Of a DNA stretch of 54,483 nucleotides, positions 31,587-52,691 are shown piece by piece. Position numbers and translations under genes: made by a program. A model generated the notes under the pieces. It did no database searches and was not told the DNA's origin. It saw only the letters and a list, made by a program, of their open reading frames with translations. Source of the stretch: Candidatus Polarisedimenticolaceae bacterium (GTDB lineage: Bacteria; Acidobacteriota; Polarisedimenticolia; Polarisedimenticolales; DASRJG01); contig DASVAW010000094.1 of NCBI GenBank assembly GCA_036376135.1, positions 1 through 54,483 on the forward strand, written 5' to 3'. Every line of letters begins with the position of its first letter. The first letter of the stretch is position 1.

Positions 31587-32410
31587 GGTCGCACGCCGAG
31601 GAGGTCCGGGCGGGGGAGCGGTTCCCGTTCGGGGAAAACTGGCGGCGACTGCTCGCCTCGGTGGGCCCCGAGCGCATCGAGCACGCGTCGGCGTCCCTCA
31701 CCGGGGTCCTCGGCGCGAAGGCCCTGGAAGGGCGCCGGTTCCTCGACGCCGGGTGCGGGAGCGGGTTGTTCTCCCTCGCGGCGAGCCTGCGTGGGGCCCG
31801 GGTCGTCTCGTTCGACTTCGACCCCGCCTGCGTCGCCTGCGCGGTCGAGCTGCGCGCGCGTTTCCACCGGGACGCGCCGGACTGGAGGATCGAGCGCGGC
31901 TCGGTCCTGGACGCGGAGTATCTCGCGCGACTCGGGACCTTCGACGTCGTGTACTCGTGGGGTGTGCTCCACCACACCGGGCGGATGTGGGATGCGATCG
32001 ACCTCGTCGCGGCGCGGGTCGCCCCGGGCGGTCGCCTGTGGATCGCCCTGTACAACGACCAGGGGGCGTGGAGCCGCGCCTGGCTCGCGATCAAGCGCGC
32101 CTACAACCGCGCGCCGCGCCCGCTGCGCGACCTCCTTCTCGGCGCCTGCTTCGTGCGCCTGTGGGGCCCGACGCTCCTGCGCGACCTCGCGAAAGGGAGC
32201 GCGCTTTCCACCTGGCGCGGCTACGCGAGGACGGGGCGCGGGATGTCGCCGTGGCGCGACGTCGTGGACTGGGTCGGCGGTCTGCCGTTCGAGGTCGCGT
32301 CGATCGCGGCCGTCGAGGACTTCCTCGCCGCGCGCGGATTCGAGCGCGAGCACGTCGTGTCGGTCGGGCGAGGTCACGGCTGCAACGAGTTCGTCCTGAG
32401 GCGCCGTTGA
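31583..32410 (+). CDS. SAM-dependent methyltransferase
   Basis: 275-aa class I methyltransferase. The SAM motif is FLDAGCGSGLFSLAASL (about residues 53-69), with the acidic end of strand 2 SFDFDPACVACA and motif II-like FDVVYSWGVLHHTG. A C-terminal extension follows with several aromatic and basic helices. GTG start overlapping the preceding stop. Position in the glycan operon suggests methylation of a sugar or lipid-linked glycan. Confidence 0.87.
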   Translation: MRSHAEEVRAGERFPFGENWRRLLASVGPERIEHASASLTGVLGAKALEGRRFLDAGCGSGLFSLAASLRGARVVSFDFDPACVACAVELRARFHRDAPDWRIERGSVLDAEYLARLGTFDVVYSWGVLHHTGRMWDAIDLVAARVAPGGRLWIALYNDQGAWSRAWLAIKRAYNRAPRPLRDLLLGACFVRLWGPTLLRDLAKGSALSTWRGYARTGRGMSPWRDVVDWVGGLPFEVASIAAVEDFLAARGFEREHVVSVGRGHGCNEFVLRRR

Positions 32411-33717: not shown

Positions 33718-33719
33718 CG

Positions 33720-34400
33720 ATGGACCAGACGCGCATCTGGGAGCACTTCCAGAACGAGGGCGCGGACTCGTTCGCCGGCGCCCGCCCGAGGCTGGCGTGG
33801 CTCGCGTCGCGCCTGGCCCGCGGCGAGCAGGTGCTGGACATCGGGGTCGGGGACGGGGCTTTCGAACGATTCGCCGAGGCGCGCGGGGCGCGCGTGCACG
33901 TCCTCGATCCCGACGCGAAGGCGATCGCGCGCGTGCGCGAGGCGCTCGATCTCGGCGAACGGGCGCGCGCGGGGTACGCGACCGCGATCCCCTGGCCGGA
34001 CGCCGCCTTCGACACGGTCGTCGTCTCCGAGGTCCTCGAGCACCTGGACGACGCCACCCTCGAAGGCAGCCTCGCCGAGATCCGCCGCGTGCTCCGGCCC
34101 GGCGGCCGCATCCTCGGCACCGTCCCGGCCGACGAGGACCTCGCGGCGCAGGCGGCGGTGTGCCCGGACTGCGGCAAGCGCTTCCACCGGTGGGGACACG
34201 CGCGCCGCTTCGATCGGGACGGACTGGGCGCGACGCTCGCCTCGCGGTTCGCGTCGGTCGACGTCTCCCGACGGTGGTTCTTCGCCTGGGAGCGGCTGAA
34301 CGTCCGGGGCAAGCTCCAGGCGGCGGCCCGGCTCGCCCTCGCGACGGTGGGGGTCTGGGGGAGCGGGCACAACTTCGTCTTCGAAGCGAGGCGCGATTGA
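33720..34400 (+). CDS. SAM-dependent methyltransferase with zinc-ribbon-like insert
   Basis: 226-aa class I methyltransferase: QVLDIGVGDGAFERFAEA (SAM loop), VHVLDPDAKAI, FDTVVVSEVLEHLDD and RVLRPGGRILGTVP are the usual motifs in order. An insert CPDCGKRFHRWGHARRF looks like a metal-binding or nucleic-acid/glycan-contact element. The ATG at 33720 is preferred over the GTG at 33714 because GAGGA lies 9 nt from it. The operon role is probably glycan methylation. Confidence 0.86.
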   Translation: MDQTRIWEHFQNEGADSFAGARPRLAWLASRLARGEQVLDIGVGDGAFERFAEARGARVHVLDPDAKAIARVREALDLGERARAGYATAIPWPDAAFDTVVVSEVLEHLDDATLEGSLAEIRRVLRPGGRILGTVPADEDLAAQAAVCPDCGKRFHRWGHARRFDRDGLGATLASRFASVDVSRRWFFAWERLNVRGKLQAAARLALATVGVWGSGHNFVFEARRD

Positions 34401-35401
34401 GCCCGCTGGCTCTCTATCCGGCGGCCTTTGCCCTCGCGGCCGCCGTCGCCTGGGGGTTCACGCCGCGCGTGCGCGCCGCCGCGATCCGCTTCGGGATCGT
34501 GGACAAGCCGGACGGGTTGCTCAAGCAGCACCGGGAGCCCGTCGCGTACCTCGGGGGGCTCGCGATCTACCTCAGCTTTCTCGTCGCGTGCGCCTTCGTG
34601 CTGGACTTCGAGCGGGACGTGTTGGGACTCCTGCTCGCCGGCGCCATCGTGGTGCTCGTCGGACTGATCGACGACCTGGGGTCGCTGACCCCCTGGACCA
34701 AGCTCGCGGGTCAGGCGGTCGCGGTGGGCGTGCTGATCAAGTCGGGGATCTACATTCAGCTCGGGTTCGTTCCCTTCTGGATCGCCATCGCCCTGTCGGT
34801 CCTCTGGCTCCTTGCGACCACCAACGCCTTCAACCTGATCGACATCATGGACGGGCTGTCCGCGGGGACGGCCTCGGTCGCGGCGGTGGCGCTCGTCGTC
34901 GTGGCGCACCTCAACGGACGCGTCGGGGCGGCGACGATGCTCGCGGCGCTCGCCGGGGCCTGCGCGGGGTTCCTGCGATGGAACTTCCAGCCGGCGCGCA
35001 TCTACATGGGCGACACCGGGAGCCTGTTCCTCGGCCTGATGCTCGGTGCCTTCGCGATGGACCTCGCGTACACCGAGACGAATCCCGTCGCGGCGCTGGC
35101 GCCGGCCCTGATCCTCGGCGTGCCTCTGTTCGACATGCTGTTCGTGATGTACGTCCGCTGGCGCCGCGGCATGCCCGTGATGCTCGGGAGCCCCGACCAC
35201 GTCGCGCTGCGCCTGCGGAAGTGGCGCCTGACGACCCGTCAGACCGTCCTCGCCTCGTACGCGGCGACCGCGGTGCTGGGAGGCGCGTCGGTGGCGATGA
35301 TCGGCGCCTCCGCCACCGGGGCCCTGGGCATCCTCGGCGGCCTCGTGGCCTCGGCGCTCGTCCTCGGCGTATGGCTGCGCCGGATCGACATGTCCTTGTG
35401 A
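34397..35401 (+). CDS. WecA/MraY-family polyprenyl-phosphate sugar-1-phosphate transferase
   Basis: 334-aa membrane enzyme (about 10 helices) that starts a lipid-linked glycan by moving a HexNAc-1-phosphate onto undecaprenyl phosphate. Family landmarks in order: FGIVDKPDGLLKQHREPVAYLGG, VGLIDDLGS (paired Asp for Mg), NAFNLIDIMDGLSAG and ARIYMGDTGSLFLGL, then the histidine-containing cytoplasmic loop GSPDHVALRLRKW. WecA-type rather than MraY because of operon context and length. The TTG start overlaps the preceding stop (TTGA). Confidence 0.9.
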   Translation: MSPLALYPAAFALAAAVAWGFTPRVRAAAIRFGIVDKPDGLLKQHREPVAYLGGLAIYLSFLVACAFVLDFERDVLGLLLAGAIVVLVGLIDDLGSLTPWTKLAGQAVAVGVLIKSGIYIQLGFVPFWIAIALSVLWLLATTNAFNLIDIMDGLSAGTASVAAVALVVVAHLNGRVGAATMLAALAGACAGFLRWNFQPARIYMGDTGSLFLGLMLGAFAMDLAYTETNPVAALAPALILGVPLFDMLFVMYVRWRRGMPVMLGSPDHVALRLRKWRLTTRQTVLASYAATAVLGGASVAMIGASATGALGILGGLVASALVLGVWLRRIDMSL

Positions 35402-35414
35402 CGGAGGCTCGCGC

Positions 35415-36689
35415 ATGATCGTGATCCTCGGCGGCGGCCTCGCGGGGCTCGCCACCTCGCTCTTCCTGAAGGACGTGCCGCACGTCGTGCTGGAGGCGGA
35501 CGCCGTTCCGGGCGGCCTCTGCCGCACGCGCGCCGTCGACGGTTTCCTGTTCGACTACACGGGGCACCTCCTGCACCTGCGCGACCCGAGGATCGTCGCG
35601 CTGGTCGAGGAGTTGCTCCCGGGCGGCCTCGAGACGGTCGAGCGGCGCGCGTACATCCGCACGTGCGGCGTCACCCTCCCGTTCCCGTTCCAGGCGAACC
35701 TCCACGGCCTCCCGCGGGAGGTCGTCGCCGAGTGCATCGTCGGATTCGCCGAGACCCTCGGCACCGCCGTCCCCGCCGATCCCGAGATCTCGTTCCGCGA
35801 CTGGTCGCTCGCCGTGCTCGGTCGCGGGATCAGCGAAGCCTTCATGTTCCCGTACAACGCGAAGCTGTTCCGGCGCGAGCCCGCGGAGATGACCGCGGAC
35901 TGGGTCTCGTGGGCGATCCCGAAGCCCAACCTGCGGGAGGTGGTCCAGGGGGCGCTGGGCGTCGTGAACCGCGGGATGGGATACAACGCGACGTTCCGGT
36001 ACCCCCGATCGGGGGGGATCGGTGCGCTCCCCGAGGCGTTGCACCGTCGCGTCGCCGACCGCGTGCGCTGCGGCGCCCGTGTGACGACGGTCGACCTCGA
36101 CCGCCGGACGGTCCGCCTCGAGGGGGGCGAGACCCTGGCCTGGGACCGTCTCGTGTCCACGGCCCCGCTCCCGGCGCTGCTCGGGATGGTCGGGGAGCCG
36201 GCGCCCGAGCTCGACTGGACCGTCGTGGGCTGCCTGAACCTCGGGTTCGACCGCCCCGGTCTCGGCGGCGACGCCCAATGGATCTACTTCCCCGACCCCG
36301 AGGTCCCGTTCTACCGCGTCGGGTTCTCCCACAACATCGTTCCCGGCGTCTGCCCGGAGGGAACGTCGTCCCTCTACGTCGAGTTCGGGATGAAACGCGG
36401 CGAGGCCGCGGACCCCGAGCATCTCGAGGCGGCCACGGTCGCGGCGCTGCGCCGGGAAGGGTTCCTCGACGGGGACGAGCGCGTCGTGGTGAGGGACTTC
36501 GTGAGGATCGACCCGGGTTACGTGATCTTCGACCGCGCGCGCCGGCGCGTCATGGCCGAGGCCGTGCCGCGGCTCGAGGCGAGCGGGGTGATTCCCATCG
36601 GGCGGTACGGCGCCTGGACCTACTCGTACATGGAGCGCGCGATGCTCGACGGGCTCGACGCCGCAGAACGCCTGCGCCGGGGGGCCTGA
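35415..36689 (+). CDS. FAD-dependent amine oxidase/UDP-galactopyranose mutase-like protein
   Basis: 424-aa flavoprotein. The N-terminal dinucleotide fold MIVILGGGLAGLATSLFLKD is followed by VLEADAVPGGLCRT and DYTGHLLHL. Internal LGRGISEAFMFPYNAKLFR resembles the UDP-galactopyranose mutase and protoporphyrinogen oxidase-like group often found in glycan loci. A C-terminal GRYGAWTYSYMERAMLDGLDAAERL closes the FAD site. Exact reaction unknown; a sugar-ring mutase or desaturase acting on a nucleotide or lipid-linked sugar is the inference. Confidence 0.82.
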   Translation: MIVILGGGLAGLATSLFLKDVPHVVLEADAVPGGLCRTRAVDGFLFDYTGHLLHLRDPRIVALVEELLPGGLETVERRAYIRTCGVTLPFPFQANLHGLPREVVAECIVGFAETLGTAVPADPEISFRDWSLAVLGRGISEAFMFPYNAKLFRREPAEMTADWVSWAIPKPNLREVVQGALGVVNRGMGYNATFRYPRSGGIGALPEALHRRVADRVRCGARVTTVDLDRRTVRLEGGETLAWDRLVSTAPLPALLGMVGEPAPELDWTVVGCLNLGFDRPGLGGDAQWIYFPDPEVPFYRVGFSHNIVPGVCPEGTSSLYVEFGMKRGEAADPEHLEAATVAALRREGFLDGDERVVVRDFVRIDPGYVIFDRARRRVMAEAVPRLEASGVIPIGRYGAWTYSYMERAMLDGLDAAERLRRGA

Positions 36690-36695
36690 CCCCGC

Positions 36696-38510
36696 GTGTG
36701 CGGCATCGCCGGGATCGTCGCGCTCGACGCGCGTCCGGTCGATCGCGCGGCCGTCGCGCGGATGCTCGACGGGATCGTGCATCGGGGGCCCGACGCCCAC
36801 GGCCTGTACGAAGGACCGGGGATCGCTGCGGGGATCCGCCGGCTGCGCGTCGTCGACCTCGCGACCGGCGACCAGCCGATCGCCAACGAGGACGGCACGG
36901 TCGAGGTGGTCTTCAACGGGGAGATCTACGGATTCACCGCGCTTCGCGAGGAGCTCGAGGGGCGCGGGCACCGGTTCCGAACCCGCTCGGACACGGAGGT
37001 CCTGGTCCACCTTTGGGAGGAGCACGGCCTCGGGATGCTCGACCGCCTGAACGGGATGTTCGCGTTCTGCCTGCTCGACCGGCGGACCGGGGACGTCCTG
37101 ATCGCGCGCGACCCGATGGGGATCAAGCCGCTGTACCTGCGCGAGACTCCGGCCGGGCTCGCGTTCGCGTCGGAGCTCCCGCCCCTGCTCGCGCTTCCCG
37201 GGCCCCGCCCGAGCGTGGACGCGGAACGATTGCTCGACCTTTTCCTCCTCCAGTACGTCCCCGGCGACGCGACCGTGCACGCGGGGATCACCACGCTCGC
37301 GCCGGGGCACCTGCTGCTGCGCCGCGACGGCCGGTGGGATCGGCGCCGGTACGCGTCGCCCGCGCACGGGGGCGATGCGCAGCCCGGCGCCGCGCGGCGC
37401 CTCCGGGAGCTGCTCGAGGACGCGGTGCGCCTGCAGAAGGTCGCGGACGTCCCGGTCGGCGTCTTCCTCTCGGGGGGGCTCGACTCGACGGCGGTCGCGG
37501 CGCTGCTCTCGCGCGAGACGGGGGCGGTCGAGACCTTCTCGGTCGGCTTCCCCGACCCGCGCCACGACGAGAGCGGACACGCCGCCGCCGCGGCGGCCGC
37601 GGTGGGCTCGCGCCACCACGCGCTGCGCCTCGACGCCGGCGAGACGGCGGCGAGGCTTCCGGAGCTCGTCCGCCATCTCGGCGAACCGCTCGTCGATCCC
37701 GCGCTGATCCCGACCTGGCTCCTGTCGAAGTTCGCGAGGGAGCGGGTTACCGTGGTGCTGACCGGGGAAGGGGCCGACGAGCTCTTCGGCGGATACCGGC
37801 GTTATCGCTGGCAGCGCCGGTACGGAGCCGGCGGCCGGCTCCCCGGCGCGCGCGCGCTCGCGCGCTGGCTCCCCCGGCGCGCCGCGCAGGCGGTCGAGGC
37901 CCTCTCGGAGCCCGATCCCGCGTTGTCGCACCTCGCGTGGGCGTCGACCTGCGGCCCCGCGTTCGCGCGGACGTTGTTCGGGGACGACCGCGTCGACCGC
38001 TGGCGGAGGTCGACGCGCGAACGCTTCGCCCCGTACTTCGACGGCGTCGATCGGGTCGAGGGGTCGCTGCGGGCCGACCTCGCGACGTGGCTCCCCAACA
38101 ACCTGCTCTCGAAGGTCGATCGCGCGAGCATGGCGTTCTCGCTGGAGGCGCGCGTCCCCTTCCTCGATCGGCGCATCGTGGATCTCGCGTCACGCCTGCC
38201 TCTCGATGCGAAGGTGACCTCGAAGGAGGGGAAGATCGTCCTCCGTCGCGCCGTGGCGGACCTGGTGCCGCCCTCGGTGCTTCGGCGGCCCAAGCGCGGC
38301 TTCGACCTTCCGCTCGCGGCGTGGCTGAGGGGGCCCCTGGCCGGGCCGGCGTCCGAGCGGTTCGCCTCCGGCGCGCTCGAGCGCGGCCTCGGCCTGAGGG
38401 AGGGAGCCGCGCGACGGCTGCTCGACGACCACCGCGCCGGTCGCGTGGATGCCGGGCTTCCCTTGTTCTCGCTCCTGTCGATCGCCATCTTTCTCGACGA
38501 CCATGCGTGA
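36696..38510 (+). CDS. asnB: Second asparagine synthetase (glutamine-hydrolysing)
   Basis: 604-aa AsnB paralogue of the enzyme at 26233-28194. Glutaminase nucleophile Cys2 (MCGIAGIV) and FNGEIYGF; synthetase domain with SGGLDST near 259-265 and LTGEGADELFGGY; C-terminal FSLEARVPFLDRRIV. The GTG start is chosen because the Cys must follow the initiator Met. A short-spaced neighbour on both sides: 6 bp after the FAD enzyme and an 8-bp overlap with the next glycosyltransferase. Probably amidates a sugar acid in the glycan. Confidence 0.9.
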   Translation: MCGIAGIVALDARPVDRAAVARMLDGIVHRGPDAHGLYEGPGIAAGIRRLRVVDLATGDQPIANEDGTVEVVFNGEIYGFTALREELEGRGHRFRTRSDTEVLVHLWEEHGLGMLDRLNGMFAFCLLDRRTGDVLIARDPMGIKPLYLRETPAGLAFASELPPLLALPGPRPSVDAERLLDLFLLQYVPGDATVHAGITTLAPGHLLLRRDGRWDRRRYASPAHGGDAQPGAARRLRELLEDAVRLQKVADVPVGVFLSGGLDSTAVAALLSRETGAVETFSVGFPDPRHDESGHAAAAAAAVGSRHHALRLDAGETAARLPELVRHLGEPLVDPALIPTWLLSKFARERVTVVLTGEGADELFGGYRRYRWQRRYGAGGRLPGARALARWLPRRAAQAVEALSEPDPALSHLAWASTCGPAFARTLFGDDRVDRWRRSTRERFAPYFDGVDRVEGSLRADLATWLPNNLLSKVDRASMAFSLEARVPFLDRRIVDLASRLPLDAKVTSKEGKIVLRRAVADLVPPSVLRRPKRGFDLPLAAWLRGPLAGPASERFASGALERGLGLREGAARRLLDDHRAGRVDAGLPLFSLLSIAIFLDDHA

Positions 38511-39666
38511 GCGTCGCCGCGTCTGTCACCTGATCACGCGCCTGGAGCTGGGCGGCGCGCAGCAGAACACCCTGTTCTCGACGGCGCATCACGACCGCGC
38601 TCGCTTCTCGGTGTCGCTGTGGGCGGGCCGGGGGGGGATCCTCGACGACGAGGCGCGGGCGATCCTCGAAACCGACTTGCGCCTGCTCCCGTTTCTCAGA
38701 CACCCGATCTCCCCGGTCGCGGACGCGATCGCGGTCGTCCGCCTCGCGGCGATGCTGCGCGCGTCGCGGATCGAGCTCCTGCACACCCACTCGTCGAAGG
38801 CGGGGATCGTCGGCCGCCTCGCCGCGGCTCTGGCGGGAACTCCCGCGGTCGTGCACACGGTGCACGGATGGAGCTTCAACGACACCCAGGCCCCCGCGCT
38901 GCGTCGCCTTTACGTGGCGCTCGAGCGCCTGGCCGCGCGCCGCACGCACGCCCTCGTTTTCGTCGCCGAGGCCGACCGCGCCCGCGGCGCGGATCTGGCG
39001 ATCGGCGATCCGGCGCGTTACCGCCTTTTCCGCAGCGGGATCGACCGCGATCGGTACGTCGCCCCGGCGGGGGTGCGCGACGCCACGCGCCGCGCGCTCG
39101 GTTACGGTCCGGACGAGGTGGTGGTCGGCTCCCTCGCGTGCCTGAAGGCGCAGAAGGCGCCGCTCGACTTCGTCGCCGCGGCGGATGTCGCCGCGCGGTC
39201 GGACCCGAGGCTGCGATTCTTCATCGCGGGGGACGGGGAGCTCCGTGGCGAGGTCGAGCGGGAGGTCGCCTCGCGCGGGCTCGAGGATCGGTTCCGGCTG
39301 CTCGGCTGGCGCCAGGACGTCGCCGAGTTGCTCGCGGCGATGGACGTGTTCGTGTTGACGTCGAGGTTCGAGGGGTTGCCGCGAGCGGTCCTCCAGGCGA
39401 TGGCGGCGGGGGTCCCCGTCGTGGCGACGGCGGTCGGCGGCACGCCGGAGGTCGTGCGCGACGGCGCGACCGGGCGGCTCGTTCCCCCGGGCGAGCCCCG
39501 GACCGCCGCGGCCGCGATCCTGGGGCTTGCCGCCGATCCCGAGTTGCGGAGGCGGTGCGTCGCCGCAGCGCGCGCGCGTCTCGGGGAGGAGTTCGACATC
39601 CGTCGGATGGTGGCCGGGTTGGACGACCTCTACCTCAGCCTGCTCGAAAAGCCGAAAACCACCTGA
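38503..39666 (+). CDS. Glycosyltransferase family 4
   Basis: 387-aa GT-B enzyme ending the plus-strand glycan operon. N-terminal CHLITRLELGGAQQNTLF, the HTHSSKAGIVGRLAA loop typical of EpsD/PelF-like transferases, GSLACLKAQKAPLDFV, and donor site TSRFEGLPRAVLQAMAAGVPVVAT. The ATG at 38503 overlaps the asnB stop by 8 nt. The acceptor-domain motif HTHSSKAGI is frequent in enzymes that add the second sugar to a lipid-linked HexNAc. Confidence 0.89.
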   Translation: MRERRRVCHLITRLELGGAQQNTLFSTAHHDRARFSVSLWAGRGGILDDEARAILETDLRLLPFLRHPISPVADAIAVVRLAAMLRASRIELLHTHSSKAGIVGRLAAALAGTPAVVHTVHGWSFNDTQAPALRRLYVALERLAARRTHALVFVAEADRARGADLAIGDPARYRLFRSGIDRDRYVAPAGVRDATRRALGYGPDEVVVGSLACLKAQKAPLDFVAAADVAARSDPRLRFFIAGDGELRGEVEREVASRGLEDRFRLLGWRQDVAELLAAMDVFVLTSRFEGLPRAVLQAMAAGVPVVATAVGGTPEVVRDGATGRLVPPGEPRTAAAAILGLAADPELRRRCVAAARARLGEEFDIRRMVAGLDDLYLSLLEKPKTT

Positions 39667-41459: not shown

Positions 41460-42304
41460 GGCGGGGGCTGATCGCGGCGGGACTCGTCGTCGCGCTGGGG
41501 GCGGGCGCCCACGTCGCGCGGGCGAGGCTGGACGCGTTGGCCGCCGCGCCGCCGTCGGGTCGGCCGCTCCTGTACCTGCCGAACGGGCGCTACCTGAAGG
41601 CCGCGAGCCTGGGGCACGCGCCGCTCGTCGCCGATTTCGTCTACCTCTGGGCGATCCAGTTCTACTCCGACTACGAGCGTCGGGACCGGTTCCGCTACGT
41701 CGAGCACCTCTTCGGTCGCGTGATCCCCGAGCTCGATCCGCGCTACGTCGATCCGTACTGGATCGGCGCGCTGATCCTCACCGTCGAGGCGCGGGACCTC
41801 GAGGGGGGGCTGCGGATCCTCGAGACCGGCTTCCGCAACAACCCCCGGCAGTGGGTGCTGCTCTACCTCGCCGGCTGGGAGTGCTCGACCGCCGGGCAGC
41901 CGGCGCGCGCCGCCGAGTACTTCGGGCGTGCGGCGGCGATTCCCGGCGCGCCCGCGCAGCTGCGTCGTCTCCAGGCGGGGATGGTGGCCAAGTCCGGCGA
42001 TCTCGAGGAGGCGCTCCACACCTGGCGCGCGCTTCTCGACGACCCGGCCTCCGATCCCACCACGCGCGGGATCGCCGACCGCCAGGTGCGCGACCTCACC
42101 GTGAAGCGGGACGTCCAGTCCCTCGAGCAGGCGGTGGCCCGGTTCCGCGAGCGGGCGGGACGGCCGCCGCGCACCCTCGAGGAGCTCGTCGCGCGCGGCG
42201 TCGTTTCCCGGCTTCCGCTCGATCCCGACGGCCTCCCTTACGCGTACGACCCGGCGAGAGGCGTCGTGTCCAGCTCCGCCGGACGCATCCTGGGGGACCG
42301 TTGA
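41456..42304 (+). CDS. Membrane-anchored TPR-like protein (PilG-like position)
   Basis: 282-aa protein: an N-terminal membrane anchor or signal (about 4-22), then a conserved [34 protein letters not shown] segment found in a family of TPR proteins next to pilus ABC genes (family recall, not searched). TPR-like helices follow (about 95-215), and a short C-terminal domain with [22 protein letters not shown] resembles the GspG C-terminus. It overlaps both the permease and pilD by 4 nt, so the four genes form one coupled unit. Function unproven. Confidence 0.78.
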
Positions 42305-43089
42305 GCGCGCTCGTCTTTCTCGTCGGGCTGATCGTGGGGAGCTTTCTCAACGTCTGCATCCATCGGCTCCCGCTGGGGGAGAACATCGCCTTTCCCGGGT
42401 CGCACTGCCCGAAGTGCGGGGCCGCGATCCGCTGGTACCAGAACGTCCCCGTCCTCTCGTGGCTCGCGCTGCGGGGACGGTGCGCCGCCTGCCGGGCTCC
42501 GATCGCCTGGCGGTACCCGATCGTCGAGCTGCTCTCCGGGATCGCCGCGCTCTCGGCCTTCGCCGCGTACGGTCCCACGCTCGCGTTCGCGATCGCCCTC
42601 GCGTACGCGTGGATGCTGCTCGTCCTGTTCTTCACCGACTGGGACCACCACCTCCTCCCCGACGCGATCACCCTGACCGGTTTCGCGGCGGGGATGGCGA
42701 TCGCCGCGTTCAACCCGTTCCTCGCCGGGGAGGGCAGCTGGGGACGGATCTGGACGGCGCTTCTCGGCGCGGCGCTGGGCTCGGGCATCCTCTGGGGGAT
42801 CGGCGCGGTGTGGAAGCGACTCCGCGGCGTGGACGCCATGGGCCTGGGCGACGTGAAGATGATGGCGATGGTCGGCGCCTTCACGGGGCCCTCGGGGGTG
42901 TTGTTCACGCTGTTCTTCGGGTCGATCGTCGGCGCGATCGTCGGGGTCGCGAGGATCCCGTTCCGGGGCGGATCGCTCCGCGACGAGCTTCCGTTCGGAT
43001 GTTTCCTCGCCCCGTCGGCGCTCGTCGCGATGCACGGCGCGAGGCGCGCGATCGACGCCTACCTCGCCTTCGTCGGGTTCGGGGCGTGA
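42301..43089 (+). CDS. pilD: PilD, prepilin peptidase/N-methyltransferase
   Basis: 262-aa inner-membrane aspartic protease that removes prepilin leaders and methylates the new N-terminus. The N-terminal GSFLNVCIHRLP is followed by the methylase-domain zinc cysteines CPKC (about 39-42) and CAAC, then the catalytic aspartates in FFTDWDHHLLPD and GLGDVKMMAMVG. All prepilins in this window (positions 21789-22754 and 45046 on) are likely substrates. The TTG start overlaps the previous stop; the next gene begins one base after its own stop. Confidence 0.95.
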   Translation: MSALVFLVGLIVGSFLNVCIHRLPLGENIAFPGSHCPKCGAAIRWYQNVPVLSWLALRGRCAACRAPIAWRYPIVELLSGIAALSAFAAYGPTLAFAIALAYAWMLLVLFFTDWDHHLLPDAITLTGFAAGMAIAAFNPFLAGEGSWGRIWTALLGAALGSGILWGIGAVWKRLRGVDAMGLGDVKMMAMVGAFTGPSGVLFTLFFGSIVGAIVGVARIPFRGGSLRDELPFGCFLAPSALVAMHGARRAIDAYLAFVGFGA

Positions 43090-43090: not shown

Positions 43091-44884
43091 GTGGCGGAAC
43101 CGCGCCTGGGCCGGTTCGGTTTCCAGCTCCGCGTGACGCTCGTCCTCCTCGTCCTTTTCCTGGCCGCCGCCGACCTCGTCAACCTGATGCTCCTCGGTCA
43201 GGCCCGGGAGGCGCTGGAGGTCGCGGAGTCGGAACGGGTGCGGTCCCGCGCGCGCGAGGTGGCCCGGGCGCTCGGGTCGGCGCCCATCGACGCCGCGGGG
43301 CTCGCCCGGACCGCGCGCGACTTCGACCTGCGCCGCCTCGCTCTGTTCGAGCCCGGCGGGAACATCCTCGCCGCTTGGCCCGAGCGCTCCCGGTTCTGGC
43401 CCGAGCTCGACGCGGACACGCGTGCGGCGCTCGCCGCAGGCCGCGCCGCGTCGTTCCGGGACTCCGGGGAGGGGAGGGACGGGATGGTGGCGCTCGTCCC
43501 GGTGCTCGATCCGTCGGGCGTGTGGCTGCGCGGGGTGGCGGTGGAGCAGGCGGCGCCCGCGCTCGCGACGGTCGAATCACGCGCCCGGACGCTCCGGGTG
43601 GTCCAGGCGATCGGCATCGTCGTGATCGGAGGGCTGGCGCTGGTCTTCGCGCGCTGGGTCAGCCGTCCCTACCGCAGCCTCGTCGCGGCGGCGGGGGACG
43701 CGGGACTCGCCCCGGTCGCGCTCGACGCGGACGGCGACCCCGACGCTCTCGCGCAGGCGTTCCGTCGCGTGGCCGAGAAGCTCCGCGAGCAGGAGGCCGC
43801 GCTCGGCCAGGCGGGTCGCGAAGGGGGCGGGCTCGGCGACCTCGTGCGATTCGCGACGGGGCCGGCGCGCGGGATGACGACGGGGGTCGTCGTGGTGGAC
43901 CGCCGCGGAAAGCTCGCGGCGCTCAACGCCTCGGCCGAGGCGCTGCTCGGCGTGCGCGGCGTCGACGTGGCCGGTCAGCCGCTCGACGCCGCCGCGCGGG
44001 AGGTCGAGGGGTTGCGCGAGCTCGTCGTGGCGTGTCTCGAGCGCGGCCGGTCGGCCACGCGCGAGGTGCTCGAGGTGCGACGCCCCGACGGCCGCGGTGC
44101 GCACCTGGGGGTCTCGGTTTCTCCGGCGACGGCGGGCCCGTCGGGGGAGGTCGCCGGCGCGCTCGTCCTGATGACCGACCTCACCGAGATCCGGCGCCTC
44201 CAGGAACAGGCACGAACGCGCGACAACCTCGCGGCGGTCGGCCAGCTGGCGGCGGGAATCGCGCACGAGTTCCGCAACGCCCTCGGCACGATCCTCGGCT
44301 GGGCGCGGATGCTCGAAAAGCGCGACGACCCCAGGGTTCGCGGGCCCGCGCAGGAGATCATCAAGGAGGTCGACGCCGTGCGCGCCTCGCTCGACGAGTT
44401 CCTCCTCTACGCGCGCCCGCAGGAGCCGGCCCGCGTGCCGGTGGATCTCGACGACCTCGTCCGGCGTTGCGTGGCGAGCGCCCCGGAGGGGCTCGGCGTC
44501 GACGCGGAGGGGGAGTTCGGCACGGTCGTCGGGGACGAGGCCCTGCTCCGCCGGGTCTTCGGGAACCTCCTGCAGAACGCCGCGGACGCCGGGCGCGAGG
44601 CGGGGCGCGCCGTCTCGGTGAGGATCGTCGGCCGCAGGAGCGGATCCGGACGGCACGTCCAGATCGACGTGGAGGACGACGGCCCGGGCATCCCCCCCGA
44701 ACGCCGCCGCGAAGTCTTCGTGCCGTTCTTCACCACGCGGGCGAAGGGGACGGGGCTCGGGCTCGCCCTGGTGCAGCGGACGCTGGTCGACCTCGGCGGA
44801 AGCGTGGAGGTGGGGGACGGGCCGAGGGGCGGGGCCTCCTTCCGGATCCGGCTTCCCCTGCACGACGGCGACGGCGCAGTGTAA
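43091..44884 (+). CDS. Membrane sensor histidine kinase (second pilus-locus kinase)
   Basis: 597-aa kinase. TM1 (about 12-36), a periplasmic sensor domain of about 130 residues, TM2 (about 169-187), a HAMP-like linker, a PAS domain (about 255-365, ending LVLMTDLTEIRRL), HisKA with phosphoacceptor H392 in GIAHEFRNALG, and HATPase_c (FGNLLQNAADAGREAG, DDGPGIPPE, GTGLGLALVQRTL). Architecture differs from PilS in having a periplasmic sensor. It lies just upstream of the minor-pilin promoter; its natural partner is probably the NtrC-type regulator at 51276-52691. Confidence 0.88.
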   Translation: MAEPRLGRFGFQLRVTLVLLVLFLAAADLVNLMLLGQAREALEVAESERVRSRAREVARALGSAPIDAAGLARTARDFDLRRLALFEPGGNILAAWPERSRFWPELDADTRAALAAGRAASFRDSGEGRDGMVALVPVLDPSGVWLRGVAVEQAAPALATVESRARTLRVVQAIGIVVIGGLALVFARWVSRPYRSLVAAAGDAGLAPVALDADGDPDALAQAFRRVAEKLREQEAALGQAGREGGGLGDLVRFATGPARGMTTGVVVVDRRGKLAALNASAEALLGVRGVDVAGQPLDAAAREVEGLRELVVACLERGRSATREVLEVRRPDGRGAHLGVSVSPATAGPSGEVAGALVLMTDLTEIRRLQEQARTRDNLAAVGQLAAGIAHEFRNALGTILGWARMLEKRDDPRVRGPAQEIIKEVDAVRASLDEFLLYARPQEPARVPVDLDDLVRRCVASAPEGLGVDAEGEFGTVVGDEALLRRVFGNLLQNAADAGREAGRAVSVRIVGRRSGSGRHVQIDVEDDGPGIPPERRREVFVPFFTTRAKGTGLGLALVQRTLVDLGGSVEVGDGPRGGASFRIRLPLHDGDGAV

Positions 44885-45001: not shown

Positions 45002-45017
45002 TGGCACGCCGGATGCT
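45002..45017 (+). promoter_or_regulatory. Sigma-54 promoter of the minor-pilin operon
   Basis: TGGCACG-N4-ATGCT with GG at 45003-45004 and GC at 45015-45016, the required 10-bp spacing; only the first base of the -12 box departs from consensus. Transcription would start near 45027, 19 nt before the FimT-like ATG at 45046, with GGAGGG at 45035-45040 between. This also rules out a more upstream in-frame ATG at 45013 (and the GTG at 45001) as the gene start. Confidence 0.82.
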
Positions 45018-45045
45018 GTTCCGTCTCGTCGATCGGAGGGACGTG

Positions 45046-45522
45046 ATGAACCCGAGGGTGCGGAGTACATCGAGGGGCTTCTCGGCGGCCGAGCTGCTCA
45101 TCGTCATCGCCATCATCGGCCTGCTGGTCGCCGTGGCGGTGCCGCTCGTGAACAACCAGGTCCGTCAGGCCAAGGCCCGCGGCGCGGCGGACGCGATGGG
45201 GGTCGACCTCCGGGCCGCACGCATGCTCGCGGTCACCAAGCAGCAGGACATCCCGTTCGTCCTCGAAGTCGATCCGGTCAACGCCTACCGGTACACCGGC
45301 AACGACGGAAAGGTCCGCCGGTTCGTGCTCCCGGTGGGGGTCCGCATCCTCGGATCGTCCACCCCCACGACGATCACCTTCCGCCCGAACGGCTCGATCG
45401 CCGCCCAGGCGACGACCGTGGTCGAGATCGCGATGTCGGGATCGGCGACGGCGAAGGAGACCTACACCATCGTGACGTCGACGGCGGGGATCCCGAAGAC
45501 GACCAAGACCCGGACGAACTGA
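45046..45522 (+). CDS. FimT/GspH-like minor pilin
   Basis: 158-aa prepilin. Leader MNPRVRSTSRG, cleavage before FSAAELLIVIAIIGLLVAVAVP with Glu at +5. The globular part follows the GspH/FimT pattern (QAKARGAADAMGVDLRAARMLAV, then beta strands ending in TFRPNGSI-type and VEIAMSG). Start chosen from the sigma-54 promoter and GGAGGG ribosome site. First gene of the minor-pilin operon; minor pilins prime pilus assembly and cap the tip. Confidence 0.87.
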   Translation: MNPRVRSTSRGFSAAELLIVIAIIGLLVAVAVPLVNNQVRQAKARGAADAMGVDLRAARMLAVTKQQDIPFVLEVDPVNAYRYTGNDGKVRRFVLPVGVRILGSSTPTTITFRPNGSIAAQATTVVEIAMSGSATAKETYTIVTSTAGIPKTTKTRTN

Positions 45523-45532: not shown

Positions 45533-46006
45533 ATGCACTCGAGGAACGAACGCGGATTCAGCCTCGTCGAGCTCATCCTGGCGCTCGGTCTCCTGGCCGG
45601 CGTCATGCTCGCGATCGCGGGGATGTTCTCCATCGGCGGAAAGCAGGTGAAGAGCGGACGGACCTCGAGCGAGGCCCTCGCCGTCGGCCGGCAGATCCTC
45701 GAGGAGATGAACGGCTGGGCCTACCGGCAGACCTACGAGAATTTCGGGCTCGACGGGGCGGCGGCGAGTTATTCGGTCGACACGCGTGCGAACACGAGCA
45801 CCTTCGCCCAGAAGTGGCACGCGACCCTGCAGTCGAAGCTCGGGGCGAGCGCCTACGCCACGATCGCGCTCTCGTCGGTCGTGGGCACCGGCACCGCTCC
45901 CGTCATGAACAGCGCCGTCGCGAAGAACTACCGCGTCACGGTCACCGTGCACTGGAACGAGATCACCCGTCCCCGGACGGTGACCGTCGCCACGGTGCGC
46001 ATGTGA
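45533..46006 (+). CDS. PilV/GspI-like minor pilin
   Basis: 157-aa prepilin: MHSRNERG leader, then FSLVELILALGLLAGVMLAIAGM with Glu at +5. The short globular region with LAVGRQILEEMNGWAY is like PilV/GspI proteins, and a C-terminal strand reads NYRVTVTVHWNEITRPRTVTV. It begins 10 bp after the FimT-like gene, with a GGAGGGGG ribosome site. Confidence 0.85.
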   Translation: MHSRNERGFSLVELILALGLLAGVMLAIAGMFSIGGKQVKSGRTSSEALAVGRQILEEMNGWAYRQTYENFGLDGAAASYSVDTRANTSTFAQKWHATLQSKLGASAYATIALSSVVGTGTAPVMNSAVAKNYRVTVTVHWNEITRPRTVTVATVRM

Positions 46007-46017: not shown

Positions 46018-48759
46018 ATGGATCCCGCGAAACTCGCCCGCCGCCGACCCGACAGCGGTCTCACGCTGGTCGAGATCCTCGTCGCGACCGCCGTGCTCGC
46101 GATCGCGATCGTGATCGCGCTGATGATCTACGACCAGTCCCGGCGCTCGTTCAAGCAGGGCGAGAACGCCGTGGAGCAACAGCAGGCGGTCCGCATCGCG
46201 TTCGACCGGCTCAACGCCGACCTGCGGATGGCGGGGTACAACTACAACCCGGACGGCAACGTCGCTTCGGTCGACGAGCAGATCGAAGCGGCGTACGACG
46301 GCGCGATCGTCATCCGCGGCGACTTCGACGGCCAGGAGGAGCCCGCGCTCGTCGGCCCCGCGGCGGCGTCGGTCTCGGTCGGCAACGACGAGATCGTGAT
46401 CTACGCGCTGAGCAAACCCGAGTGGATCTCCTCCGGGACCGGCGGCCAGACGCTCACCTTCAGCGCGGACGTCCAGGAGGAGCCGCGCGACGGCGAGGTC
46501 GAGACGGTCAGCGTCCCCAACGTCGCGCTCGTCCAGACCGCGGCGGAAGCGCCGTACACCCTCTACCGGATCACGCTCAACGCGGACGAGAGCACCTGGG
46601 GGAGCGGCGGGTTCATCACCCGAACGCCGCTCGTCGAGAACATCCGCTCGATGACCTACCGCTACTTCGGGCAGACCCAGACCCAGATCAACACGCTCGA
46701 CCTCGGCTCGGCGACCGACGACATCGGCGGCGCCGAGACCGCCGCGTCCAAGGCGACCCGGCTGGGAATCCGCCGCGTGAACGTGTCGCTCATCGGATTG
46801 ACCCGCGATCCCGACATGAACTACGTCGACCCCGCCGACGCGGAGCCGAGCACGCGGAGGTACCGGAAGTTCGAGCTCGTCGGCGACGTGACCCCGCGCA
46901 ACCTCGGGATGAAGGGGATCCGCGACCTGATCGGCGATTCCAGCCCCCCGTCGCAGCCGGGAGCGCCGACCCTGCTCGCCGGCCACTGCGGGGGGCTCTA
47001 CGTGTCCTGGCCCCCGAACGACGCGGAGGAGGGCGTGACCTCGTACCGCGTGCTCATCGGCACGACGGCGGGAAGCCCGACCTCCTCGCGCAGCTCGAGC
47101 ACGAACGCCGCGTACGTTTCGGGGCTGACCACGGGGACGACCTATTACGTCGCGATCACCGCGCTCGACGCCGCGGGCAACGAGTCCATCCGGTCGAGCG
47201 AGCGCAACGCCGCGGTCACGAACACGACGGTCCCCTCCGCTCCGGCGACGGTGAGCGCGACGGACTCCCAGCCGGACGCCGTCAACGTGACGTGGACCGC
47301 CGTGACGACGAACACGGCGGCGCTCGCCGGAGATCCGCAGTCGCCGACCATCCGCGACCTGGCGGGTTATCGCATCTACCGCGGAACCTCGGCGAACTTC
47401 AGCCCCGCGGCCGGGAATCGGATCGTCGACGAGACCGTCTCGAAGCCGAGCCCCACCCCTTCGGCTCCGGACACGACGGTCGTCAACTGCCGCGACTACT
47501 TCTACAAGGTGCGCGCGGTGGACTCCTGCGGGACCGAGTCGGACGACGCCCCCGGGGCGCTCGGCGAGGCCGGGCGCGCGGAGAGCGAGGTCGAGCCGGC
47601 GACGCCGCAGAACGTGCAGGCGTTCATCACGGGAGTGAGCCGCGTCACGGTGTCGTGGGACGTCGTCAACGAAAACATCAAGGGCCAGCCGATCCGGATC
47701 GACGACTACGAAGTCATCGGCCGGCGCTGCCTGATCCTCGACACCGACTGCCAGAACGATCCCAGCGGTTACACCCCCGTCGGCACCGCGACCAACGGCA
47801 ATCTGAGCCTGGTGGACACCGGTGCCTCCGGGATCGACGTCCTCAGATCCTGGTACTACCGGGTGCGGGCCAAGGACGATTGCCCGAACTACTCGAGCTG
47901 GTCGGAGCTGGCCACCGCGCGGTGCACCTTTCTGGGCAGCCTGACCTGGGTCACGCCCAACGACGGCGACCCGGTGTCGGGAGTGACGCCGATCCGTGTC
48001 GCGGCGTACAGCGCGGGCGTCGAGACCTACGCGGACGCCAGCCTCACGATCGTCCACGGCGCGTCGGGGGCGACGGAGACGCGCATCCTCAGCCCGCGGG
48101 TCGTGGGCGACACGACGTATTTCGAGTACGACTGGCTGGCCACCCCTCCGGGGCAATACACGCTGACGATCACGGTACCCAACGCGGGGGGGTGCACGAA
48201 GTCGAGCTCGATCCAGCTCAACGCCGCTCCCACGGTGGCCTGTTGCCTGTCGTTCAACCCCGGAGTCGCCGGTGCGGCGCGGTTCCTCAGCTGCACGAAC
48301 GAGACCACGGACGGGAACGATCAGGAATGCCGGGACCTGAACTACAAGTTGTGGAACAACGCGTGCCTGACCTCCGTGAGGGTCGACTCGCTGACGATCG
48401 CCTGGACCAACGTGAAGGCACCCCAGCTGACGCGTCCCGCGCTCCTGGAGGAGGTCTTCTTCGGCGGCAGCAGCGTCTGGGTCCCCGGGAACGCGGCGAC
48501 GCCGGCGTCGACGACGTTCTCCTCCAGGCCACCGCTGGTGCCGTACACCCGCAACGCGGCGAACACGGTCGATGTGACCTACCGGTTCGCCGACGAGATG
48601 TCGCGGGAGGCGGGCGGCAAGCATCAGCCCGTCGACACGACGTTCAACTTCACCCTGCTCGATTCGGCCGGCGCGCCCACGGGGATCACCGGAACGTGCG
48701 GCGTCCCGAACGGATTCAGCTTCTCCGTGCCCGATCCGCTCAGCACGACCACCCCGTAA
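46018..48759 (+). CDS. Giant PilW-like minor pilin with fibronectin type III repeats
   Basis: 913-aa prepilin, about three times the usual PilW length. Leader MDPAKLARRRPDSG, then LTLVEILVATAVLAIAIVIALM, with Glu at +5, and a PilW/GspJ-like region to about 300 (QQAVRIAFDRLNADLRMAGYN; NIRSMTYRYFG; LGIRRVNVSLIGL). From about 310 come three FN3-type modules (about 312-400, 404-520, 525-640), each opening with a Pro-rich SAPATVSATD-type strand and a V-x-V-x-W core. An Ig-like module (about 641-740, SLTWVTPNDGDPVSGVTPI) and a Cys-containing C-terminal domain follow. Several cysteine pairs suggest disulfides. Likely exposed at the pilus tip as an adhesin. Confidence 0.85.
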   Translation: MDPAKLARRRPDSGLTLVEILVATAVLAIAIVIALMIYDQSRRSFKQGENAVEQQQAVRIAFDRLNADLRMAGYNYNPDGNVASVDEQIEAAYDGAIVIRGDFDGQEEPALVGPAAASVSVGNDEIVIYALSKPEWISSGTGGQTLTFSADVQEEPRDGEVETVSVPNVALVQTAAEAPYTLYRITLNADESTWGSGGFITRTPLVENIRSMTYRYFGQTQTQINTLDLGSATDDIGGAETAASKATRLGIRRVNVSLIGLTRDPDMNYVDPADAEPSTRRYRKFELVGDVTPRNLGMKGIRDLIGDSSPPSQPGAPTLLAGHCGGLYVSWPPNDAEEGVTSYRVLIGTTAGSPTSSRSSSTNAAYVSGLTTGTTYYVAITALDAAGNESIRSSERNAAVTNTTVPSAPATVSATDSQPDAVNVTWTAVTTNTAALAGDPQSPTIRDLAGYRIYRGTSANFSPAAGNRIVDETVSKPSPTPSAPDTTVVNCRDYFYKVRAVDSCGTESDDAPGALGEAGRAESEVEPATPQNVQAFITGVSRVTVSWDVVNENIKGQPIRIDDYEVIGRRCLILDTDCQNDPSGYTPVGTATNGNLSLVDTGASGIDVLRSWYYRVRAKDDCPNYSSWSELATARCTFLGSLTWVTPNDGDPVSGVTPIRVAAYSAGVETYADASLTIVHGASGATETRILSPRVVGDTTYFEYDWLATPPGQYTLTITVPNAGGCTKSSSIQLNAAPTVACCLSFNPGVAGAARFLSCTNETTDGNDQECRDLNYKLWNNACLTSVRVDSLTIAWTNVKAPQLTRPALLEEVFFGGSSVWVPGNAATPASTTFSSRPPLVPYTRNAANTVDVTYRFADEMSREAGGKHQPVDTTFNFTLLDSAGAPTGITGTCGVPNGFSFSVPDPLSTTTP

Positions 48760-48772: not shown

Positions 48773-50659
48773 ATGACGAACCCGACGATGCGACTGCCTT
48801 CCCCGCGCGCGCGGGAGCGCGAGCGCGGATCGGCTCTCGTGATCGCCGTCCTGGTGACGGTGATCCTGACCCTGCTCGGCGTCGCGTTCCTGCTGATGGG
48901 CGAGACCGAGAACAAGATCGCCGAGAACGAGAAGCTCTCGGCGCAGGCCCTCTACTTCGCCGAGGCGGGGACGCGACAGGTCAAGCGCTGGTTCGACCGC
49001 CCGCGGGGCACGACCGGGTACAACTGGAACCTGCACAACCCGCCGCCGGGCGTGTTGCGGCGGGACCTCCGGATCCTCGATCCCGACGGTCCGGGGCCGA
49101 CGGCGGCGGCGGCGACCGACGGCAACGCGGGAGGCGCCCTGCCGAACTACAAGCAGGGGGTGGACGTCAACCTCGACGGGTTCGACGATGTCTTCGACCG
49201 TCCCTACCGGCCGACCCCGCTCGACATGTTCATGGGGACGGCCGACGGGCCGGACATCCGCATCGACCGCGCGTTCAACAACGCGTCGAAGGCCTTCCTC
49301 GACACGTTGTCCGAGCGCCTGCTCGCGAACTTCCCGGTCGCGGCGGCGAACATCGCCGCCCGGATCTCGCGCATCGACGTCTACTCGGCGCCGTACCTGC
49401 AGATCGGGCCGAACTGGACCCGTTACGGCGTGGCGACCGTCGCCGTCACCGCCCAGATCGTCAAGACCGAGAACGCCGTGGAGCGCGTGCTCGCGCAGCG
49501 CACCATCCGCGCGGTGATCAACGAGACCCCGTACCCGGGCCCGTTCGGCCCGCTGCACTCCTGCGACATGCTGAACTGGAACGGATCCTTCCGGGTCCAC
49601 TGGGGCGCGGCGACGGCCAAGGGGCCGGGAGTCTCCGACATCCCGAGCAACATCAACTCGAAGTTCGACCGGAGCCTGTCGCGCCTGAAGCCCCCGAACG
49701 GGAAGGCCGAGGCGTTCTACAACGGCGATTCGGCGACCTTCACGGCGATGGCGACGGCGCTGGAGACGGCCGGGACCACGATCCCGGATCCCTGGTTCCG
49801 CTTCCTCGCCGGAGGCAACGTGGACGACTGGCCGTCGGCCGACGACCAGTACGAGCCGCCCGACGCCCCTCCGGCGGCCGGGGCGGACTACATCGATTAC
49901 TCCAACATCATCCGGAACGTCCCCAACGTCGGGTGCCCGGACTTCGACTACGAAACCTGGAAGACGATCGCGCAGTCCGGGGGGAGCGACGTCTACTACT
50001 ACACGTGGGTGTCGGGCGACCAGTTCCGCCTCAACAGCTCCGGCCCGCCGACGGCCTTCGCCACGATCACCGGCGGGAAGACCGGCCTCTACTTCTTCGA
50101 CACCAAGAACTCCGCCCGGCCGGCGGACGACTACAGCAACCTCACCCCCGAGGTGCAGGTCCAGGGCGGCTGGCAGGGGTTCCGCGGGTTCATGTACCTG
50201 AACTCCGAGACCTTCACGATCAACGGCGCGCAGGCCGTCGCCGCCACGTACACCTTTCCCGGGGAGCCGTACTTCGACACGAACACGAACGGCAAGTGGG
50301 ACACCGGCGAGCCGTACGTGAATCTCAACTACAACTCCCTGGCCGCACGGGGCGACGACCTCGAGGCGGATCCGGCGGACACGTACGGGTCGGGCGCCGG
50401 CCGGGTCTACAACCGGAAGGGCGCGTCGGTCCCGGGCACCGCGGACATCTGGGGGATCGTCTACAACACCGGGGAGTTCGACGCGCAGGGCAACCCGGTG
50501 ATTCTCGGCTCGATGATCACGAAGAAAGGGCAGTCGAAGTCCGCCGGTACGGCCGATCTCTACTGGGACCCCAAGCTGATCGACGAGTGGCCGCCGTCGG
50601 ACTGGGATCTGCCGCGCGTGGTCATCACCCGGTACGAGACCGATCCGTCCACGAACTGA
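48773..50659 (+). CDS. Large PilX-like minor pilin
   Basis: 628-aa protein with the PilX/GspK N-terminal pattern: RERERGSALVIAVLVTVILTLLGVAFLL, followed by GETENKIAENEKLSAQALYFAEAGTRQVKRW. Position +5 is not Glu, as in GspK-type pilins. The remaining 550 residues, rich in Tyr, Asn, Asp and Pro, match no domain I recognise; a segment DTNTNGKWDTGEPYVNLN resembles calcium-binding dockerin/EF-type loops (Dx[DN]xDG-like). Typical PilX is about 200 residues. Last pilin of the operon. Confidence 0.83.
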   Translation: MTNPTMRLPSPRARERERGSALVIAVLVTVILTLLGVAFLLMGETENKIAENEKLSAQALYFAEAGTRQVKRWFDRPRGTTGYNWNLHNPPPGVLRRDLRILDPDGPGPTAAAATDGNAGGALPNYKQGVDVNLDGFDDVFDRPYRPTPLDMFMGTADGPDIRIDRAFNNASKAFLDTLSERLLANFPVAAANIAARISRIDVYSAPYLQIGPNWTRYGVATVAVTAQIVKTENAVERVLAQRTIRAVINETPYPGPFGPLHSCDMLNWNGSFRVHWGAATAKGPGVSDIPSNINSKFDRSLSRLKPPNGKAEAFYNGDSATFTAMATALETAGTTIPDPWFRFLAGGNVDDWPSADDQYEPPDAPPAAGADYIDYSNIIRNVPNVGCPDFDYETWKTIAQSGGSDVYYYTWVSGDQFRLNSSGPPTAFATITGGKTGLYFFDTKNSARPADDYSNLTPEVQVQGGWQGFRGFMYLNSETFTINGAQAVAATYTFPGEPYFDTNTNGKWDTGEPYVNLNYNSLAARGDDLEADPADTYGSGAGRVYNRKGASVPGTADIWGIVYNTGEFDAQGNPVILGSMITKKGQSKSAGTADLYWDPKLIDEWPPSDWDLPRVVITRYETDPSTN

Positions 50660-50680: not shown

Positions 50681-51226
50681 ATGAGACCTCTTCTCGCACT
50701 CGTCGCCCCGCTCGCGCTCGTCGCGTGCGGGGCGCCCGCGCCCTCCCAGCCGAAAGAGCCCCCTCCGATCGTCGAGATGCCGCGGCGGGCCGCCGAGCCG
50801 GCGAAGCCGGCGGAACCTCCGGCGCCGCCGGCGGAACCGGCGCCGGGGCCGCCCCCCACCGCGACCCTGATCGACCTGGGAGGCACGCCGCCCCCGGCGC
50901 CGCCTCCCGCGCCGCCCCCGACCCCTTCCGCCGCGGCGAACGAGAAGCCCGACGCCGCGGCCGTCGCGATGTCGAACCGGCTCGAGCGCGAGCGCCGGGA
51001 GCAGCGGGTGAAGGAGGCCGAGGCGACGATCGCCGAGCTCGAGAAACGCCTGCTCGCGATCGCGAACCCGTTCCTCCCGCGGCCGCAGCTTCCCCCCGAG
51101 GAAGCCGAGGCCTGGCAGGGGCTCGACGGGGTCAAGCGGCGCGAGCGCGTGAACAAGCAGCTCGAGGAGGCGAGGACCGAGCTCGAGGCCGCGCAGCAGT
51201 CCCTGAAGGCGCTCGGGGGCAACTGA
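50681..51226 (+). CDS. Proline-rich lipoprotein with C-terminal coiled coil
   Basis: 181-aa protein. Signal peptide with lipobox LVAC (C16); a Pro/Ala-rich spacer of about 70 residues (PPAPPAEPAPGPPP-type); then a charged helical region (about 95-181; RLERERREQRVKEAEATIAELEKRL and KQLEEARTELEAAQQSLKAL) expected to form a coiled coil. Such proteins usually span the periplasm or tether a complex. No family recognised. It lies between the minor-pilin operon and the NtrC-type regulator. Confidence 0.75.
   Translation: MRPLLALVAPLALVACGAPAPSQPKEPPPIVEMPRRAAEPAKPAEPPAPPAEPAPGPPPTATLIDLGGTPPPAPPPAPPPTPSAAANEKPDAAAVAMSNRLERERREQRVKEAEATIAELEKRLLAIANPFLPRPQLPPEEAEAWQGLDGVKRRERVNKQLEEARTELEAAQQSLKALGGN

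Positions 51227-51275: not shown

Positions 51276-52687
<1,412 letters not shown>

Positions 52688-52691
<4 letters not shown>

Follow-up and report, generated by a model that had tools for sequence, protein, structure and literature searches.

The gene at positions 46018-48759 encodes a 913-aa modular minor prepilin, hereafter PilW-FN3, in which a PilW-type pilin is followed by three FN3 modules and two further beta-sandwiches, and two profiles for PilY1 found no such protein in its genome. On balance, we lean towards a diderm type IVa pilus tip that is free of PilY1 and is built with two modular minor pilins, namely PilX, which would cap it, and PilW-FN3, a stalked accessory that would bind a ligand.

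The window, which is the whole stretch of DNA analysed (54,483 nucleotides, corresponding to the entire contig C94), comes from a fragmented 4.38-Mb Acidobacteriota genome of 179 contigs with a completeness of 97.6%. It carries the type IVa pilus gene set (PilM-N-O-P-Q, PilB, PilT, PilC and PilD) together with the minor pilins. The first part of the contig runs pilM-N-O-P-Q, pilB, pilT, pilC, pilS-R and two pilA-like genes, and the second part runs ABC-ABC permease-TPR-pilD-histidine kinase-fimU-pilV-pilW(FN3)-pilX-lipoprotein-sigma-54 regulator-argF, an order that is largely retained across the class from the ABC gene to argF. The names PilT, PilD, PilX_N and GspH are confirmed by family matches, and several others were assigned by gene order or resemblance.

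6109-10870, + strand: pilM, pilN, pilO, pilP and pilQ, named by gene order and resemblance, without family test
14254-18348, + strand: pilB, pilT and pilC, with PilT identified by TIGR01420
21789-22754, + strand: two major-pilin-like (pilA-like) prepilin genes, with N_methyl matches
42301-43089, + strand: pilD, prepilin peptidase (Pfam A24)
43091-44884, + strand: PAS histidine kinase gene adjoining the pilin genes
45013-45522, + strand: fimU/gspH-type minor prepilin gene (Pfam GspH and N_methyl), start uncertain, 45046 also possible
45533-46006, + strand: pilV-type minor prepilin gene
46018-48759, + strand: pilW-FN3, modular minor prepilin of 913 aa (gene call, Pfam, alignment and model)
48773-50659, + strand: pilX, 628 aa, no Glu5 (mature SALVI), PilX_N at E 2.2e-9 and model
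50681-51226, + strand: gene for a predicted 181-aa lipoprotein with a coiled-coil end, conserved in the cluster
51276-52691, + strand: sigma-54 response regulator gene

The lipoprotein combines a stretch rich in Pro and Ala with a coiled coil that is conserved at its C-terminus, and in most of the class its gene still follows pilX. Between the major- and minor-pilin parts, positions 22751-39666 hold genes for glycosyltransferases, asparagine synthases and other surface-polysaccharide-type functions. No second fimU-pilV-pilW-pilX or PilY1 cluster was found around any other N_methyl prepilin of the genome; these are a set resembling a type II secretion system (T2SS) on contig C97 (L100) and otherwise isolated prepilins. 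The genome also has a comEA gene beside a prepilin-like gene.

The reading frame of pilW-FN3 is genuine, with an ATG start, a GGAGG ribosome-binding site just upstream and a third-position GC of 0.94, which is coding-like and typical of the contig. A chance origin of the frame or of its architecture is excluded because relatives at 29-48% identity share an identical architecture. As the original prediction had stated, the N-terminus is that of a normal class III-signal prepilin: Pfam N_methyl scores above its cut-off at residues 10-35, cleavage is predicted between G14 and L15 so that E19 becomes Glu+5 of the mature protein, and both G14 and E19 are invariant in an alignment of 14 sequences. 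The protein thus combines the class III leader, Gly-1, hydrophobic helix and Glu+5 of a type IV prepilin with domains that are not specific to type IV pilus biology, the combination that defines a modular pilin. Its identity as PilW comes from its position in the fimU-pilV-pilW-pilX cluster and from its shared N-terminal domain; Pfam PilW (PF16074) did not match the window protein and matched one of the 14 aligned proteins at E 0.065. The N-terminal prepilin parts of the minor pilins or their paralogues also resemble the Verru_Chthon cassette proteins A-D (TIGR02600, TIGR02598, TIGR02599, TIGR02596), although these matches cover the N-terminal part only and lie far below the curated cut-offs. 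Along the gene, the following parts can be distinguished.

46018-46059, + strand: class III leader, residues 1-14 (Pfam N_methyl; invariant G14 and E19)
46066-46230, + strand: long alpha1 helix, residues 17-71 (model)
46231-46911, + strand: pilin globular domain, residues 72-298 (model, conservation)
46933-47223, + strand: FN3 module 1, residues ~306-402 (Pfam fn3 at E 1.4e-7; model)
47224-47586, + strand: FN3 module 2, residues ~403-523, with C491/C504 (model and structure match; Pfam weak)
47587-47928, + strand: FN3 module 3, residues ~524-637 (model and structure match; no Pfam match)
47929-48234, + strand: Ig-like beta-sandwich, residues ~638-739 (Big_7 at E 0.003, below cut-off; model)
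48235-48756, + strand: distal beta-sandwich, residues ~740-913 (model; least conserved)

On sequence alone, Pfam calls FN3 once (residues 327-389, E 1.4e-7) and is weak or silent for the second and third modules. An AlphaFold2 model with a mean pLDDT of 73, calculated from a shallow alignment of ten sequences, all drawn from retrieved related loci, shows five beta-sandwich modules after the helix and the pilin domain, whose sheet reaches residue ~291. Residues 308-637, the only part of the protein with good VIA coverage, superpose on crystal structures of three FN3 domains in a row, contactin FN1-3 among them (VIA Z 13-14), and Foldseek finds three-FN3 tandems at E values down to 1e-16. FN3 folds are therefore present throughout residues 306-637, in module 1 by Pfam and in all three by model, Foldseek and VIA; the predicted trio of FN3 modules was confirmed, and the outcome of a structure without FN3 folds did not occur. 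The Ig-like module that had also been proposed corresponds to the sandwich at 638-739 in the model and to the weak bacterial Ig match; the fifth sandwich at ~740-897 had been left unlisted.

The helix and pilin domain are the best conserved part of PilW-FN3, with a mean pairwise identity of 47% for the pilin, followed by 34, 37 and 30% for the three FN3 modules and 29 and 23% for the two distal sandwiches. This drop along the rod is what one would expect if a stalk diversified at its far end, although a mere spacer would also be expected to produce it. Eight cysteines (324, 491, 504, 622, 636, 726, 742 and 894) recur in 11-12 of the 12 sequences compared, with 491/504 placed in FN3 module 2, which also contains a conserved GDPxSPxIRDLAGYR motif, and 622/636 in module 3.

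The tri-FN3 cassette occurs as well in non-pilin, probably secreted proteins of related genomes, which share 35-37% identity with that of PilW and the GDPxSPxIRDLAGYR motif; one match has 37% identity over 325 aa. Its presence in both pilin and non-pilin proteins fits a grafting of the cassette onto the pilin. The own genome encodes, in addition, a protein of 275 aa that carries one FN3 of a similar kind. The cassette proteins lie at the following loci.

L096:1049-2398: non-pilin tri-FN3 cassette protein
L050:8284-9549: non-pilin tri-FN3 cassette protein
L097:6963-11279: non-pilin tri-FN3 cassette protein
L049:8497-9324: non-pilin tri-FN3 cassette protein

Conservation analysis, in which most of the genomes compared are MAGs and gene names were given by homology, showed a PilW match spanning the pilin part through the FN3 modules in at least 21 of the 41 class genomes, the own genome included. 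Longer versions are found in two other families of the phylum (G067 in f45; G042 and G029 in f31) and also in the named records L058, L060 and L063; related records are named Acidobacteria, one of them Thermoanaerobaculia. A single-protein query of the genome contigs gave no match, and an alignment query gave 13 loci. In genus g8, orphan second copies of PilW-FN3 lie outside pilin clusters (L047:8413-11151 and L048:7647-10241), and no prepilin leader with helix was seen in the upstream frames of the L048 copy.

The FN3 modules are missing in one family of the class, f4 (six clusters read, L088-L093), and in the complete genome G059, where PilW measures 264-287 aa, PilX is large and PilY1 is absent. 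No fimU was seen in these clusters. The pilus of f4 may work differently, and Glu5 of PilW is lost in some of its members. A loss of the retraction ATPase as the background to the FN3 loss in f4 was rejected, since PilT-family proteins are present in all 41 class genomes. Since the cluster and the PilT-family genes persist there although FN3 and PilY1 are both missing, whatever system f4 and G059 have can do without the stalk, and this counts against the explanation that we favour below. In the same way, the FN3 modules do not compensate for the loss of PilY1 in every case, because f4 and G059 lack both and keep the large PilX.

PilY1 had been predicted to be absent from the window, and Pfam PF05567 indeed has no match there or in the rest of the genome, nor was its C-terminal domain found in PilW-FN3 itself by Pfam scan. 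This profile was also silent in all 14 control genomes, and therefore its presence across the phylum served as the positive control: it is positive in 57 of 199 phylum genomes, none of which belongs to the class of the window. A second profile, representing the PilY1 C-domain and built from five phylum PilY1 proteins, is positive in 68 of the 199 genomes. With every candidate scored, it recognized one of the 41 class genomes and was negative in the own genome, so that the whole-genome search agrees with the window. A full-length PilY1 profile had matched 33 of 41 class genomes; the listed matches except G212 were to generic N-terminal repeats and were removed by the C-domain profile. A PilY1 too divergent for both profiles could conceivably remain in the genome.

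The only class genome with PilY1, G212 (6% contamination), harbors it in a second cluster (L094:7360-12274) with a PilW of 226 aa, a PilX of 155 aa and pilY1, while its FN3-type cluster encodes a PilW-FN3 of 731 aa and a PilX of 619 aa and has no pilY1. In sister lineages, the genes are arranged as fimU-pilV-pilW-pilX-pilY1 with products of about 340-405 aa for PilW, about 170-207 aa for PilX and about 1120-1360 aa for PilY1; one of these clusters (L075) shares the pilD-TPR-ABC neighbourhood with the window.

The neighbouring PilX is itself large and modular and lacks Glu5. Its model, built on 7 alignment rows from retrieved related loci, deserves little confidence overall (pLDDT 58) and somewhat more in the core strands; it shows a helix and a sheet like those of a pilin, into which a beta-solenoid of the ice-binding-protein/ComZ type is inserted. 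In the VIA comparison, rows 1-14 are ice-binding beta-solenoids at Z 7.8-9.1, including 4nu2 (Z 8.7, 141 residues, 2.8 A), and row 15 is ComZ (6qvi, Z 6.9). Foldseek ranks ComZ at the top, though at E 0.058, and a PilX profile run against the sequences of solved structures did not find ComZ or any sequence similarity to it.

All clusters read that lack PilY1 encode a large PilX (at least 560 aa), even where FN3 is missing, and none of the PilY1 clusters read does so. Among the phylum genomes, PilY1 was detected in 0 of 19 with a strong, long PilX match versus 68 of 180 others, a difference (Fisher p 0.0003) that is descriptive, as the genomes are related and independent events are few. PilX size thus tracks the absence of PilY1 better than does the presence of FN3 on PilW. 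In genome G071, a paralogue of PilX is encoded close to comEA and to a GspH pilin (L107:7868-11381 and L104:7746-8652), which, like the comEA neighbourhood of the own genome, suggests a link to DNA uptake. In G153, a second full-length large PilX gene stands alone beside a PAS sensor gene (L105:6567-8426).

We take IPR003961 to be the FN3 domain entry. IPR003961 is among the 15 commonest modular pilin architectures and has no clear function, and ligand interaction is a common theme of grafted pilin modules (PMC8179133). Streptococcus sanguinis uses two modular pilins, PilB, which bears a vWA module, and PilC, which bears a lectin module (PMC8179133, PMC9934059); PilHIJK are replaced in its system (PMC8179133, PMC10191384). 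As in these proteins, non-pilin domains are grafted onto a minor pilin in PilW-FN3 for a proposed presentation at the tip. In contrast to S. sanguinis, the modules are carried by PilW, a core minor pilin, in a diderm type IVa pilus with all four core minor pilins, five modules stand in a row, a second modular minor pilin is present and PilY1 is absent nearly class-wide. PilY1/PilC (PF05567) is regarded in reviews as a standard component of diderm type IVa pili that acts as tip adhesin and priming partner (PMC10191384, PMC7541494). PilW-FN3 has the same proposed place and function, in that its modules would meet a ligand where the minor-pilin complex ends at the tip, but it has no PilY1 C-terminal domain and its modules are part of a pilin rather than a separate protein. 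CofB of the ETEC type IVb pilus is likewise a large minor pilin at the tip with beta-rich modules C-terminal to its pilin domain (PMC8179133); it differs in being type IVb, trimeric and an adapter for a secreted protein, and its modules are of beta-repeat and beta-sandwich type, not FN3. ComZ of Thermus thermophilus carries a beta-solenoid between its last two pilin strands, has 4NU2 as its nearest fold and binds DNA (PMC6561018). If its low-confidence model is right, PilX would share with ComZ a GspK-like pilin in which an ice-binding-type beta-solenoid is inserted before the last pilin strand; it has no detected sequence similarity to that protein and, unlike it, belongs to a complete fimU-pilV-pilW-pilX cluster with a stalked PilW.

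In the modelled type IVa tip, the order is FimU-PilW-PilV-PilX-PilY1, with PilX directly under PilY1 and PilW two subunits below PilX (PMC13190605). The original prediction that PilW could be the tip adhesin itself is partly supported: such a function is plausible and has precedent, but PilW is not the cap in modelled tips, and clusters exist that have neither FN3 nor PilY1. Given the FN3 folds of the model and the failure to find pilY1, PilY1 could plausibly be replaced by a pilin that brings its own stalk; PilX, which lacks Glu5, is ~620 aa long and has a ComZ-like solenoid in its model, is no weaker a candidate for the very tip. In the explanation that we favour, PilD would cut the leader of PilW-FN3, whose alpha1 helix would pack into the short complex of minor pilins from which the pilus is primed and which comes to lie at the tip. 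The Glu5-less, ComZ-like PilX with its inserted solenoid would cap this complex at the place of PilY1, and the FN3 rod of PilW would extend from just behind the cap and offer its fast-evolving distal sandwiches to a ligand, which may be a surface, a polysaccharide, another cell or DNA. Retraction by PilT would then pull on the attached load. Under this scheme, the tip function of PilY1 would thus be split between two modular minor pilins. We infer adhesion or ligand binding by PilW-FN3, its tip location and this division of labour, and given the ComZ-like partner, DNA capture would be a real alternative to the binding of other ligands.

It is unlikely, yet deserves serious weight, that the enlarged PilX replaces PilY1 on its own, as a ComZ-like tip receptor perhaps engaged in DNA uptake, with the FN3 rod serving as an accessory spacer or support of the cap. 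The distribution of the large PilX, which accompanies the lack of PilY1 even where FN3 is missing, points in this direction, as do the structural matches of its model to 4nu2 and ComZ and the comEA genes near the PilX paralogue of G071 and near a prepilin-like gene of the own genome; ComZ, moreover, has been proposed to sit at the tip (PMC6561018). Against this, most of the class and two further families of the phylum have retained the FN3 rod, together with its conserved motifs and cysteines, and the Foldseek match of PilX to ComZ is weak (E 0.058), with no sequence similarity found. A purely mechanical rod inside the machine, which would plug the secretin entry or stop over-retraction as proposed for the PilY1 N-domain and would have no external ligand, appears improbable. 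In Myxococcus xanthus, the entry of PilQ is occupied by a stem and plug that PilY1 builds together with the minor pilins (PMC7541494), and the stalk is large enough that it could take up a comparable space; however, the distal modules diverge fast, and FN3 was lost in f4 and G059 though their PilT-family genes were kept.

We consider it very improbable that the cluster builds a T2SS-like pseudopilus whose modules bind secreted substrates. The minor pilins resemble GspH/I/J/K, two relatives from outside the class (L044, L106) adjoin pilB/pilC-like genes with other partners, and the own genome does have a separate T2SS-like set; yet this set sits on another contig, and the contig of pilW-FN3 has pilMNOPQ, pilB, pilT, pilC and pilSR, with pilD beside the minor pilins. 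A fusion of a pilin gene and an FN3 gene by chance or by assembly would be conceivable in a genome as fragmented as this one, but is refuted by recurrence, as the same one-frame fusion at the same place in the cluster is found in many genomes of the class and also in MAG records named as Acidobacteria.

Modular pilins, including those bearing IPR003961 (PMC8179133), and a monoderm system that uses modular pilins (PMC10191384) are already known. What is new here is a diderm example, class-wide in extent, that lacks PilY1 and keeps the four core minor pilins, two of them modular; literature searches on PilY1, FN3 and minor pilins, which covered few subscription journals, yielded no description of the PilW-FN3/large-PilX case. 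We tentatively propose, with confidence somewhat short of even, that most of the class swapped PilY1 for a ComZ-like beta-solenoid cap, PilX, and an FN3-stalked PilW, which together would prime, cap and equip the tip. If true, PilY1 would be replaceable in a diderm type IVa pilus that retains all four core minor pilins. A lineage that retains the four core minor pilins, lacks PilY1 and carries large modules on PilW and PilX is a natural experiment on which functions of PilY1 are essential and in which ways they can be replaced, and it offers a concrete, testable function for FN3-bearing pilins, which have been catalogued without one (PMC8179133).
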